From the NCBI GenBank assembly GCA_022486705.1, contig JAKVKC010000005.1, positions 1 through 64,000 of the forward strand: a DNA stretch of 64,000 nucleotides. Reading direction: 5' to 3'. Positions 21,366 through 26,164 of the stretch are shown here, one piece after another (positions within the stretch are counted from its first letter, which is position 1; every line of letters begins with the position of its first letter). The translations under genes were made by a program, and so were the position numbers. Under the pieces are notes generated by a model, which worked only from the letters and a program-made list of their open reading frames with translations, was not told the origin of the DNA and ran no database searches. This stretch comes from Solobacterium sp. (GTDB lineage Bacteria > Bacillota_I > Bacilli_A > Erysipelotrichales > Erysipelotrichaceae).

Positions 21366-22046
21366 TTAATTCCCCTGCTTCCCATTCTTCGTACTGTCGA
21401 TCAGATCTTTGACTTTCTGTGCTGACTTCTGAGCAAGCTCCGCAGCACCTTCTTTTACTTCACTGATCTTCTGCTGTACATCCGGTCTGTTCACGAACTC
21501 ATCGACCGATTTCACACCTTCGCTCACCGCACCGGATATTTTATGATATGCATTGTTCAGATCTTCTTTTGTATGTTCATCTAAACTGTCATACATTTTC
21601 TGACCCTTTGCTTTGGCGGTGTCCGCAAACTGATTAAAAGAATCAGCCGCCTTATTTCCTGCCGCCTGCAGATTCGGATCATTCTTCAATTGATCAATTT
21701 TATCTTTGGCTGCCCCATATGCCTTGACAGCATTTGTTTTGACATAAGCAATCGACTTCTGCATTTCTTCACTGCTGCTGACTTCTCCAGCTTTTTGTTT
21801 CAGATCATTGATCCCCTTTGATATTGACTTTGAGGCATGATCCAATGTCGCTGAGATCTTTTCTTTAGCAGAAGGATCTTCTTCTTTCTGCTCTTCCTGC
21901 AGCTTCTGTTCATCTTCCTGCGAAAGTTCCTGAATCTTTTTTTTCAGATCCTCGACTGTTTTTTCAATAGAATCAATCGGTTCTTTTTCATCATCAAAAT
22001 CAATTGGATCTTTTTCTTCAGTATTCTTCTTTTCTGCATCACTCAT
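21366..22046 (-). CDS. YtxH-position hydrophilic helical protein
   Basis: 226 aa, almost entirely charged and helical, without a membrane segment or signal peptide. An acidic N-terminal third (residues 1-65) precedes repeated amphipathic segments with spaced Lys, Ala and Asp, like those of apolipoprotein or LEA-type proteins. It overlaps the start of ytxG's neighbour region by 8 bases at the ytxG stop. It lies one base before the ccpA start, in the slot held by ytxH in B. subtilis. Sequence similarity to YtxH is not evident, so the link is by position. Confidence 0.75.
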   Translation of the reverse strand: MSDAEKKNTEEKDPIDFDDEKEPIDSIEKTVEDLKKKIQELSQEDEQKLQEEQKEEDPSAKEKISATLDHASKSISKGINDLKQKAGEVSSSEEMQKSIAYVKTNAVKAYGAAKDKIDQLKNDPNLQAAGNKAADSFNQFADTAKAKGQKMYDSLDEHTKEDLNNAYHKISGAVSEGVKSVDEFVNRPDVQQKISEVKEGAAELAQKSAQKVKDLIDSTKNGKQGN

Positions 22047-22401
22047 GATCTTTCACCTCAGAACTTTCAGCTCCGGCCTTATCCGCAAACTGATTCTTCA
22101 GATTATCAATATTATCAGATGCAAAATCGGCGACTTTTCCAATTACTTCACTTGTCTTATCGTGAACTTTGTCCAATGTATGAGAATATTTCACTGCCGT
22201 ATCCAGCGGTGCCTGGACTTTTTCCAAGCTCTGGTCGGCCAGCTTTATCGTCGGATCCAATTCCTTGACTGTCGCCGTAAGCTGATCAAAGAAGTTCCAC
22301 AGCTTTTTTAAAAAAATACATACAAAGATCAATGCGACTGCTCCCAATATCGGCAGCAGCTGCTCAGATACATTCTGTAATGCTAATAGCAAAGCGTCCA
22401 T
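22039..22401 (-). CDS. ytxG: YtxG-like DUF948 membrane protein
   Basis: 120 aa with one N-terminal membrane helix (residues 15-33) followed by a cytoplasmic or external helical region (DQLTATVKELDPTIK and onward). This is the DUF948 layout and matches B. subtilis YtxG, also near murC and ccpA. Its function is uncertain; the B. subtilis genes are stress-associated. ATG 22401 has AAAGGAG upstream. It is the first gene of ytxG-ytxH-like-ccpA. Confidence 0.82.
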   Translation of the reverse strand: MDALLLALQNVSEQLLPILGAVALIFVCIFLKKLWNFFDQLTATVKELDPTIKLADQSLEKVQAPLDTAVKYSHTLDKVHDKTSEVIGKVADFASDNIDNLKNQFADKAGAESSEVKDHE

Positions 22402-22492: not shown

Positions 22493-23800
22493 CTAATGAG
22501 ACTTTTTGACCAGATCTGCCAAGCCATAAATATCCTTGCTGGACATGAACAAAAAGCATGCTGGACATTCTTTTGCCAGAATATCCGCGCCTTTCTGATC
22601 CTCCGTAATGACAGCTGAACCTGGGATCATTTTCTGCAGGTAAGTAATATCAATATCCGTGCCATCCTGTTTATCATCAATGGATGTGAAATCGCATAGA
22701 TATACCTTGTCAGCCTTCATCAGCTGTTTTTTGAAATCCTCGGCAAAATATTTTACCCGCGAAGCACGATGCGGCTTGAAAACAGCGACCAGTTTATGAT
22801 CCGGAAATTCTTTTCTTGCTGTATCGATCGTGACGCCGACTTCCGTCGGATGATGTGCATAGTCATCAACAAAGATATTATCCTTATGATGTTCAACCGC
22901 AAATCTTCTCTTTGCCCCGTGGAATTCGCTCAGGCCTTTTTCGATCATATCTGCCGGAACACCCTCCAGCATGGCAATGCCGATGACAGCCAATGAATTC
23001 AGCAGCAGATGGTGCCCGACCAATGGCGTTGAAAAATGCGCATACTGCCTGCCATGCCAAAGTACATCGAAATCCATGCCATCCTGACGTTCATCTACAT
23101 TGACTGCCTGCAGATCGTCATTGTCCTTCTCGCCATACCAATAATGTACTGTACTGCCCAATTCCATCTTCCGTGCTTCTTCATCTTCGCCCCATATCAT
23201 CAATGCTTTCCTGACATGGGTGGCAAATTCTTCATAAGCACTGCGATAGTCTGCTTTATCCTTGAAATAATCTACATGGTCGATATCAACGTTGGTGATC
23301 ACCGCATAATCTGGATAGTATGCCAGAAAATGTCTTCTGAACTCATCCGATTCCAAGCAGAAATATTTTGTGTCCTTTGTCAGATGACCTGTACCGTCGC
23401 CAATCAGCCATCCCGTATGGCCGAAGTTCTTCATCACACTGGAGAGCATCGCAGTCGTCGTTGTCTTGCCATGCGAACCGGCGATAGAAATCACCTTATA
23501 CTTTTTCAGGAACTCACCTAAAAACTCATGATATCTTGCACAGATACATGTTTTATTCTTTCTGGCCGCAATCACTTCCGGAAAATCTTCCAGGAAGGCA
23601 TTGCCAATGATAATATGCATATTATCCTGAATATTCTTTGGATCAAAATCCAATATTTTTATATTTCTTTCACGCAGTGGATCTTCTGTGAAAAAATGCT
23701 TTGGCAAGTCGCTGCCGGTGACTTCATTGCCAAGATCGTAGAGCATGCAAGCTAAAGAGGACATTCCTGTCCCCTTTATTCCAATAAAATAGTATTTCAT
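22493..23800 (-). CDS. murC: UDP-N-acetylmuramate--L-alanine ligase
   Basis: First Mur ligase of peptidoglycan synthesis, adding L-Ala to UDP-MurNAc in the cytoplasm. About 435 aa. The N-terminal Rossmann motif IGIKGTGMSS is followed by the ATP-binding SIAGSHGKTTTTAM loop and the FVDDYAHHPTEV motif typical of MurC. ATG 23800 gives the family N-terminus MKYYFIGIKG; longer in-frame ATGs at 23827 and just after overlap the upstream gene. It starts seven bases after the acidic disordered protein gene and should be co-transcribed with it. Confidence 0.97.
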   Translation of the reverse strand: MKYYFIGIKGTGMSSLACMLYDLGNEVTGSDLPKHFFTEDPLRERNIKILDFDPKNIQDNMHIIIGNAFLEDFPEVIAARKNKTCICARYHEFLGEFLKKYKVISIAGSHGKTTTTAMLSSVMKNFGHTGWLIGDGTGHLTKDTKYFCLESDEFRRHFLAYYPDYAVITNVDIDHVDYFKDKADYRSAYEEFATHVRKALMIWGEDEEARKMELGSTVHYWYGEKDNDDLQAVNVDERQDGMDFDVLWHGRQYAHFSTPLVGHHLLLNSLAVIGIAMLEGVPADMIEKGLSEFHGAKRRFAVEHHKDNIFVDDYAHHPTEVGVTIDTARKEFPDHKLVAVFKPHRASRVKYFAEDFKKQLMKADKVYLCDFTSIDDKQDGTDIDITYLQKMIPGSAVITEDQKGADILAKECPACFLFMSSKDIYGLADLVKKSH

Positions 23801-23807
23801 CCTACCC

Positions 23808-24686
23808 TTACTTCTCATCATCATCAAACAGCTGCTGTTTGATGATCACTGTATTATCTATACTGCTGTTATCCTCAGGTGCTTCCTTCGGCAGATCTAC
23901 CGGCAGATCCGCAGGAACATCCTCATTTACTTCTTCTGCTTCTGGAGCGTCATCATCATCGAATGTCAGATCAGGGAAGATTGGAGCTTCCTCATCCTTG
24001 ACAGCACGATCCTCATCCGCAAATTCCTGATCTCTGACTTTTAAAATATCATCCAAAGAGAATTCAGGAATATCATCTTCCTTGCTTTCCTTATTGGTCG
24101 CATTGATCTGGCTCAGCAGATCAGAAGATGCTGCATCTTCTTTTTCTTCTTCTGTATCTTCAGCAGCCACACCGTACATCGGCGAAAGAACAGGAGTGAC
24201 ATTTGGTTCTTTCTTCGGCTTCTGTGCATTCTTGATCTTATTTGTTGTATTCTTCAGAGAATTGACATCTTTTTCATCAACACCAAAGATCGGACTGATG
24301 ACAGGACGGAACTGATAGTTCAATGCATCATCCTTCTTCTCCTTCTTCGCTGATTCCATAGGCTTGATGGGATTTGCTTTGACCGGCTTTTTCTTTTCTG
24401 CCGGTGCATCATCAACGGTAATTCCCAGCGTAGGCTTCTTAGCTTCTTCGCTCTTCTCTTCATTGATGAGCGTGATCGGCTCTGGTTTCACAGCTGGCTG
24501 AACGGTCGGCTGGACCGGTGCTGGTGCTGCCGGACGTACCTCCGGCTGTACAGGTGCAGCTGGCTTTACCGCTGCCGGCTGAGCCTGGACAGGCTGCTGC
24601 TGAGGCATTGCTGTCCCCTGACCTTCTTCATTGACAATATCATCATCTTCATCTTCGAATAATAGGTTTTGTAATTTTTTAAACAT
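23808..24686 (-). CDS. Unknown acidic disordered protein with twin SP[IM][FY]GV motifs
   Basis: 292 aa from ATG 24686 (AAGGGG upstream). No known family is recognised. It has a short N-terminal helix (MFKKLQNLLF), a Pro/Ala/Gln/Val-rich stretch (about residues 25-70), a Lys-rich middle and an Asp/Glu-rich C-terminal third. Two matching motifs, RPVISPIFGV (about 127-136) and TPVLSPMYGV (about 164-173), stand out from low-complexity surroundings and are probably docking sites. There is no signal peptide or membrane segment. It lies seven bases upstream of murC in the same transcript, which suggests a cell-wall or division role but does not prove it. Confidence 0.8.
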   Translation of the reverse strand: MFKKLQNLLFEDEDDDIVNEEGQGTAMPQQQPVQAQPAAVKPAAPVQPEVRPAAPAPVQPTVQPAVKPEPITLINEEKSEEAKKPTLGITVDDAPAEKKKPVKANPIKPMESAKKEKKDDALNYQFRPVISPIFGVDEKDVNSLKNTTNKIKNAQKPKKEPNVTPVLSPMYGVAAEDTEEEKEDAASSDLLSQINATNKESKEDDIPEFSLDDILKVRDQEFADEDRAVKDEEAPIFPDLTFDDDDAPEAEEVNEDVPADLPVDLPKEAPEDNSSIDNTVIIKQQLFDDDEK

Positions 24687-24720
24687 GACATTCCCCTTCT
24701 TTAGATTTTTATACAAATGT

Positions 24721-24749
24721 ATTTTATTATAAAATTTTACACTTGTTAA
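24721..24749 (-). promoter_or_regulatory. Promoter of the acidic protein-murC transcript
   Basis: TTAACA (24744-24749), 17-bp spacer, TAAAAT (24721-24726) on the minus strand. Confidence 0.6.
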
Positions 24750-24780
24750 GAATAACTATAACATAAACAAATAAAATCAA

Positions 24781-25485
24781 CTATTCCTGATTATCAGAAG
24801 TGATCTTATCCGCACCGGAATCCTGATCTCCAATTGTATTTGTTTCATTGATCAGATCGCTGATCGTGCCGGATTCAGGGACAACTTCATTGAACAGCTG
24901 GATCTTTTCAGTTTTATAGTCCAGCGTCTTATGATTCGTATATGCCAAGGCAATCTGCTCTGCATCTGTTTCAACACTGCGGGCGATCTTCAGCATTTCA
25001 CCGGCAAGGCTGGCTGCCTGTGCCAATTCACTGATACCGCAGAAAGACACGGTATCTGTATTCAGCAGGATCAGCATCCTGGTCCCATCCTGATACATGC
25101 ATACGTGATATGTCCGCTGGATCTGTTCTGTATCGATATATGTGCCCTTCAGATCGATCGCTGCATCTTTCGCTGCACTGCTGCTCTCCGAGGACTGGTC
25201 AGGATAATACTTTGCATTGATGATCTCCGCCACATTCAGATTCATCGCAAATTTTGTTCCCTGATAAGAAAAGATATTGCCCGTCTTTGTACTGCTGTAT
25301 CTGCCGACAGATGGCTCAATATAATAGGAGTAGTACTCTTTGCTGTGATTTGCCTTGGCTGCGGTTTGGTTCAGAACGCGGGATAGAGAATCCTGTACGC
25401 TCTGTGCAAGCGTATTCTCACTGTCTGCGCAGCCAGCCGCAAAGATCAATGCAAAGCATATCACAGCTGAAGCAGTTCTCTTCAT
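24781..25485 (-). CDS. Unknown lipoprotein
   Basis: 234 aa. An N-terminal signal peptide with lipobox FAAGC (residues 15-19) predicts a lipid-anchored surface protein. The remainder is a soluble domain with a Tyr-rich segment (YYSYYIEP), a Ser-rich linker and an acidic tail; no family is recognised. It lies 16 bases after trmB on the same strand and probably shares its transcript. The AGGAGG-like site is just upstream of ATG 25485. Confidence 0.82.
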   Translation of the reverse strand: MKRTASAVICFALIFAAGCADSENTLAQSVQDSLSRVLNQTAAKANHSKEYYSYYIEPSVGRYSSTKTGNIFSYQGTKFAMNLNVAEIINAKYYPDQSSESSSAAKDAAIDLKGTYIDTEQIQRTYHVCMYQDGTRMLILLNTDTVSFCGISELAQAASLAGEMLKIARSVETDAEQIALAYTNHKTLDYKTEKIQLFNEVVPESGTISDLINETNTIGDQDSGADKITSDNQE

Positions 25486-25501: not shown

Positions 25502-26164
25502 TTATTTTAGCATTCCCTTTCTGTTCGGTGAAGCACAGAGCTGATAGATCGGCTGAGATAAGGCCATGAACTTTGCTTCATATTCCGTGATAGCATCTTC
25601 CGGATGATCTGTACGATGATAATCCACAGAGAATTCACTGAACTTGAAATCATTCTGCAGAAAGTACAGAACAGAATCCTCAAAGAGGTCCTTGTTGTCT
25701 GTCTTCATGCGTATGCATCCATTTTCACTCAGTACAGAACGATACATATCTAAGAAACGGCTCGAGCTCAGACGTTTTTTATGTGCATGCTTCTTCGGCC
25801 ATGGATCAGAAAAATTCAGGTGGATCACATCGATCTCACCATCCGCGAACCATTTCTGAAGATCTTCCGCATAGCCGCAGATCATCCGATTGTTATCAAT
25901 ATGCAGGGGTTCCTTTTCCAATGCCTTCCGCGAAGCTACCGCGGCCGCACTGTGATCCTTCTCCATTCCGATCCAGCCATCCTGCGGATACATTTCCGCC
26001 ATATGGATCAGGTAGTCTCCCTTGCCCATACCGATCTCAAGATGAAGCTGCTGACAATGGAGCAGTTCCTTCCAATGTCCCTTTTCTTCTTCCGGATCGC
26101 TATAGATATAGCTGCTGTGCTCATTCAGCCATGGTTCTGCCCATTTCTTTTTTCTCATTCTCAT
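25502..26164 (-). CDS. trmB: tRNA (guanine46-N7)-methyltransferase
   Basis: 220-aa SAM-dependent enzyme that methylates G46 in the variable loop of tRNA. TrmB family motifs are visible: the N-terminal MRMRKKKWAEPWL, the SAM-binding LEIGMGKGDYL, the VIHLNFSDPWPKKHAHKKRL block and a TEYEAKF segment near the C-terminus. In B. subtilis the orthologue also lies in the region upstream of murC and ccpA. Confidence 0.96.
   Translation of the reverse strand: MRMRKKKWAEPWLNEHSSYIYSDPEEEKGHWKELLHCQQLHLEIGMGKGDYLIHMAEMYPQDGWIGMEKDHSAAAVASRKALEKEPLHIDNNRMICGYAEDLQKWFADGEIDVIHLNFSDPWPKKHAHKKRLSSSRFLDMYRSVLSENGCIRMKTDNKDLFEDSVLYFLQNDFKFSEFSVDYHRTDHPEDAITEYEAKFMALSQPIYQLCASPNRKGMLK

Follow-up and report, generated by a model that had tools for sequence, protein, structure and literature searches.

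A disordered acidic protein encoded upstream of murC in Solobacterium carries two conserved motifs of a kind also found near the N-terminus of soluble SftA-type DNA translocases

The locus and its product

The stretch of DNA analyzed here (the window, 64,000 nucleotides from Solobacterium sp.) carries on its minus strand, at 23808-24686, a gene of 292 codons that begins with ATG at 24686 and whose stop codon ends at 23808; the plus-strand reading of the same interval is interrupted by stops. Upstream on the same strand lie two conserved neighbors, a gene for a lipoprotein-like protein with no Pfam family (24781-25485, assigned by synteny) and a gene at 25502-26164 that is likewise syntenic and that we take from sequence recognition to be trmB-like. 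Between the lipoprotein gene and the gene under study is a promoter-like site, TTAACA-17-TAAAAT (24721-24749, minus strand), which is a consensus match only (10/12 positions), and no terminator-like site was found in the scanned stretch 24550-24850. Downstream is murC (22493-23800, minus strand), encoding UDP-N-acetylmuramate--L-alanine ligase and identified by synteny and by TIGR01082 over cut-off. Its ATG at 23800 stands 7 bases past the preceding stop codon, the distance given in an earlier note on this DNA, and because the murC ribosome-binding region TAAGGGTAGG overlaps that stop codon, translation of the two genes is probably coupled. Two further minus-strand genes follow: one for a ytxG/FacZ-like small membrane protein (22039-22401), recognized by synteny and a weak DUF948 match of 19 bits that lies below cut-off, and one for a ytxH-like protein (21366-22046), a conserved neighbor placed by synteny, the window copy giving a weak YtxH match only. 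FacZ is YtxG, a DUF948 protein and a Z-ring placement factor (PMC10914604).

The 292-residue protein is, as the earlier note described it, acidic, of low complexity and disordered. Glu (11.6%), Asp (11.6%), Pro (11.0%) and Lys (10.6%) together make up about 45% of its residues, its net charge is -33, and the AlphaFold model, of mean pLDDT 54, shows no helices but those at residues 2-10, 138-147 and 211-225. Membership of a known family was ruled out as its identity, since no curated Pfam or NCBIfam model covers it above cut-off, none of 22 homologues has a Pfam match, and the PDB holds no relative.

Conserved islands in a divergent sequence

Of 58 genomes from the same family, 22 gave homologues in a single-sequence search, and a profile search added more. 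A scan of named genomes left 80 loci, almost all of which bear the label Erysipelotrichaceae or Solobacterium; among them are Bulleidia extructa, Lactimicrobium massiliense, Holdemania filiformis and Anaerorhabdus furcosa. In the 22-member alignment the mean column identity is 22%, yet the Ser, Pro and Gly of two short motifs are invariant. Motif A (YQFRPVISPIFGVDEKD, residues 124-140, 24267-24317, minus strand) contains RPVISPIFGV with Ser131, and motif B (TPVLSPMYGV, residues 164-173, 24168-24197, minus strand) contains Ser168; the motif serine codon is AGT, and the distance, noted earlier as about 37 residues, is 37 residues from start to start. Both SP[IM][FY]G motifs are present in 82 of 85 distinct homologues, here too without change in Ser, Pro or Gly, spaced by 32-49 residues with a mode of 37, and the consensus over these 85 is F-x-P-[VI]-I-S-P-[IM]-F-G for motif A and [VI]-[IL]-S-P-[MI]-Y-G for motif B. 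Because the Phe versus Tyr distinction is kept in 80/82 and 78/82 cases, respectively, we regard the two as related but not interchangeable.

Shuffled homologues contained one motif in 0.1% of trials and never contained two, and a degenerate nucleotide pattern encoding P[VIM]ISP[VIM][FY]G gave 45 matches in 39 of 296 genomes of the class, the reversed control giving 0. Within the window's own genome motifs A and B are the sole true matches to the DNA pattern, a third match to a loose version reading VCPIYG. Judged by this conservation, the motifs are no chance occurrence, selection on them is strong, and they are almost certainly docking motifs. The earlier suggestion that twin motifs dock on a structured partner is well supported by their invariance in an otherwise unalignable protein. 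Neither outcome that the note named as refuting it was borne out, since orthologues keep the motifs and the protein belongs to no known family. A literature search found no paper on such a motif.

The two motifs had also been thought to be the only conserved islands, which does not hold. A predicted N-terminal amphipathic helix (MFKKLQNLLF, residues 1-10, 24657-24686, minus strand), modelled by AlphaFold at residues 2-10, is conserved in the 22-member alignment as M[FW]KKL..LLFEE; its mean hydrophobic moment is 0.52 versus 0.32 in shuffled sequences, and it is a likely membrane anchor. The SLDDIL island (residues 211-225, 24012-24056, minus strand) is a predicted helix with pLDDT of about 80, and a similar string occurs in 71 of the 85 homologues. 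At the C-terminus lies an acidic island, QQLFDDDEK (23811-23837, minus strand), and homologues carry [STN][LI]F within their last 70 residues in 54 of 85 cases versus 5.7 expected.

The C-terminal island of some homologues resembles the replication-clamp-binding motif QL[SD]LF, the window copy reading KQQLFDDD. The form Q-x-[SDT]-[LI]F occurs there in 18 of 85 homologues, which are related sequences, against 0.1 expected from shuffles.

The motif in SftA-type translocases and other proteins

The profile search also matched reading frames of 715-743 amino acids in the families f14 and f15 (such numbers are our handles for families, not taxonomic names). These frames encode translocases of the FtsK type, which have the alpha, beta and gamma domains and no transmembrane segments, and they carry [NHKS]-x-F-[VI]-S-P-I-F-G close to the N-terminus. 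Among 30 translocases examined in a phylum set, the motif is present in 17/17 soluble SftA-type proteins, several of which were re-read upstream of the chosen Met to find it, and in 0/13 of the membrane type (SpoIIIE-type); 16 of the 17 are canonical and one (L177) is degenerate, reading FISSLWG. A second set, partly overlapping the first, gave 7/7 soluble and 0/14 membrane-type translocases with the motif. The phylum-level search returned only members of this class, with SftA of B. subtilis and S. aureus outside the set; a similar motif in the S. aureus protein is background and is not counted here as evidence. SftA of B. subtilis, which has no membrane domain, reaches the septum through recruitment by the Z-ring (PMC5357621), with support from SepF and FtsA (PMC11790237).

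The gene neighborhoods meet at the same point. The usual order is trmB, lipoprotein, disordered protein, murC, ytxG, ytxH and a lacI-type regulator. One f13 locus (L227) reads trmB, further genes, thioredoxin, SftA (KPVEFVSPITG), murC, ytxG, ytxH, with another (L226) similar, the thioredoxin and ytxG genes being seen in L227, and two f2 loci (L230, L232) read trmB, thioredoxin, disordered protein. In this gene order the f13 SftA occupies the slot of the disordered protein. In nine genomes of f1, f2 and f12 that were read, only a membrane-type FtsK is found, and every genome checked that carries the disordered protein has pumps of this type alone. The protein is a member of a conserved family without a name, which has two invariant predicted docking motifs, shares its motif with the SftA tail and lies in the SftA slot.

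In f14 and f15, SftA itself lies in a conserved block, a setting unlike that of murC (L163-L165, L228), where the order is membrane protein, thioredoxin in some cases, SftA, and two genes whose products we take from their sequences to be signal peptidase I and an RbgA-like GTPase.

When the profile of the disordered family was compared with SftA tails, 21 columns surrounding motif A aligned (P = 3e-4, probability 40%), which we consider enough for a motif match and too little to prove descent. Because the likeness spans 21 columns only, convergence of the two on one motif is possible. Such a protein would be unrelated to SftA by descent, would lie in the slot by chance and would bind the same partner, so that this alternative, which we hold to be a serious but not the favored one, is compatible with the functional explanation preferred below. 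Consistent with convergence, proteins of plainly different kinds carry the motif as well, a membrane coiled-coil protein of f12 (L167, L131, L132) and a protein of genus g149 of f5 (L166). Against it stand the shared slot and the fact that, in the genomes examined, the two proteins mostly exclude each other.

The f12 protein, a second motif protein there (L125, L129, L131, L132, L167), consists of an N-terminal membrane segment, a long charged stretch, the motif and a conserved LENTANYEKLDEEI-type end. In g149, several genes of which make sense only if TGA encodes Trp, all seven genomes have a protein of 338-425 amino acids with a single EVISPL[YF]G close to its N-terminus. The motif therefore recurs in at least four architectures, as expected for docking on a common partner. 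The f12 carrier (L167:472-1524, with L131, L132, L125 and L129) is an unrelated protein with a conserved C-terminal LENTANYEKLDEEIRKTNEFL stretch and belongs to no Pfam family.

Candidate partners and comparison with known systems

The earlier note placed the protein in wall synthesis or division. The division half gains indirect support, because the motif is shared with Z-ring-acting SftA translocases and is found in TGA-decoding, Mollicute-like genomes, whereas a link to MurC itself finds no support. We consider a division-site function of the disordered protein probable. For the fuller account that follows we put the chances at about even: a membrane-tethered disordered Z-ring adaptor whose twin motifs bind, most likely, SepF. 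The N-terminal amphipathic helix would hold the adaptor to the membrane, and the two [VI][IL]SP[IM][FY]G motifs, about 37 residues apart, would bind a structured Z-ring component, most likely a SepF dimer with two identical pockets. The remainder would be a flexible linker bearing further docking islands, SLDDIL and the acidic LF C-terminus. Lying in the SftA gene slot and carrying the SftA-tail motif without the motor, the adaptor would be the motor-less counterpart of the SftA N-terminal region in genomes where the membrane-spanning SpoIIIE type is the only FtsK-type pump.

SepF is the likeliest partner on the distribution of genes, because all 32 motif-bearing genomes checked in the handle set have SepF (PF04472), whereas five motif-bearing families lack FtsA. 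The window genome has a separate SepF (G000:C9, 134 amino acids). In f8, f16 and f19 SepF was not found and no motif protein was found either; f8 and f19 have membrane-type FtsK only and f16 has no FtsK that we could find. Counting against SepF, six families (f3, f4, f6, f7, f9, f10) include SepF-positive, motif-free genomes, with SftA status read for a minority of them, and co-occurrence has two exceptions, a draft genome in 170 contigs (G046) that has the disordered protein and no SepF match, and G350, whose sepF is decayed. FtsA was rejected as a general partner because it is missing, or matched via MreB/DnaK-like regions only, in the motif-bearing f11, f14, f15, f20 and f21. The SepF dimer has two FtsZ-tail pockets that bind D-x-P-x-F, with P438 and F440 as contacts (PMC7118173); FtsZ tails in the genomes studied here mostly read [ILV]P-x-[FW], and the motif presents P-x-[FY], an analogy that is suggestive only. 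For SepF as the direct partner of the motif we hold a tentative preference, somewhat short of an even chance.

Two SepF loci depart from the common arrangement. In a TGA-decoding genome (G350; L289, around 1862-2215), the sepF gene beside ftsZ is interrupted by stops and changes of frame and is intact in close relatives, and another genome (G017, L221) has two tandem SepF genes, the second with a different N-terminus.

The same Z-ring adaptor may instead use its motifs on the globular domain of FtsZ or on a DivIVA/GpsB-type coiled coil, which we find possible but rather unlikely. FtsZ is present in 30/30 genomes tested and matches the motif distribution nearly as well as SepF, the 30 including G350, which retains an intact motif protein despite its decayed sepF. 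A DivIVA-like gene lies near sepF in the window genome (G000), and GpsB is a known binder of short motifs. The neighboring FacZ works with GpsB (PMC10914604). Against these partners, the SepF-less families f8, f16 and f19 have FtsZ with no motif protein found, and published SftA recruitment names SepF and FtsA (PMC11790237).

An accessory role in wall synthesis, in which the motifs would bind MurC or a different Mur enzyme so that precursors are made at the membrane, is improbable. It would agree with the 7-base distance to murC and the probable translational coupling, as well as with one natural fusion. However, 15 of the 80 named loci have no murC in the cluster (L027, L030, L031, L033-L035, L037, L039, L041, L043, L045, L046, L048, L050 and L053), where the disordered protein stays between trmB-lipoprotein and ytxG-ytxH; for this reason we regard the link to murC, a non-obligatory neighbor, as not essential. 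A congener (G031, L002) has likewise lost murC from an otherwise intact cluster, and the f12 loci read (trmB, lipoprotein, motif protein, ytxG-like) again have no murC. The motif moreover occurs in SftA proteins not encoded beside murC (L163-L165, L228) and in TGA-decoding Mollicute-like genomes.

The fusion of the disordered protein to MurC is seen in one draft genome (L168:2946-4844, equal to L021, 633 amino acids) and is either real or an assembly effect. In its AlphaFold model, made from a shallow alignment without depth for the disordered half, MurC is well folded, the first 190 residues have pLDDT below 50 and the motifs are undocked, which, given that alignment, speaks weakly against a MurC contact. 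MurC partnership was rejected as the main reading on the break of synteny at murC and on this undocked, shallow-alignment model. Least probable is that the motifs are sites for a modifying enzyme such as an SP-acting kinase, a role that would fit the invariant Ser-Pro but not the equal constraint on I, [IM], [FY] and G, which is as for a buried docking peptide.

To return to the SepF-bound Z-ring adaptor, a wider and more speculative version, which we think unlikely as a whole though worth stating, is that SepF reads [VI][IL]SP[IVM][FY]G as a general docking code of the Z-ring in several unrelated proteins, namely SftA, the motor-less adaptor, the f12 membrane coiled-coil protein and the Mollicute-like TGA-decoding protein. 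The adaptor would then have replaced SftA in Erysipelotrichales and relatives, and C-terminal Q-x-S-LF variants may touch the replication clamp. In the literature we found no motif-level account of the recruitment of SftA or further soluble factors to the Z-ring of Gram-positive bacteria. A short motif conserved both in SftA and in disordered proteins that stand alone, some of them from SepF-positive, FtsA-less lineages, offers a directly testable docking code, and the protein described here is a candidate division adaptor in the poorly studied Erysipelotrichaceae.

Four known systems bear comparison with the disordered protein. SftA (YtpS/YtpT), a soluble FtsK-like DNA translocase, likewise has an N-terminal disordered region with [VFI][IV]SPI[FY]G and no transmembrane segments, and in f13 shares the slot before murC-ytxG-ytxH. 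In contrast to SftA, the disordered protein has two motifs instead of one, a predicted SepF-like amphipathic N-terminus and no motor: the FtsK alpha, beta (PF01580) and gamma (PF09397) domains gave no match in the 22 homologues, whereas real SftAs match all three. SepF, found in the same genomes, has an N-terminal amphipathic helix, as is predicted for the disordered protein, and behind it an acidic linker as here, but the disordered protein lacks the SepF core domain (PF04472) and any predicted fold at all. The FtsZ C-terminal tail, to which SepF binds, resembles the motifs described here in placing a short P-x-aromatic peptide within a disordered linker, although these motifs are not on a GTPase, are internal and duplicated, and lack the acidic residue and the basic end. 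FacZ/YtxG (DUF948) is a division-site factor encoded by a neighboring gene, and differs in being a small membrane protein of unrelated sequence.
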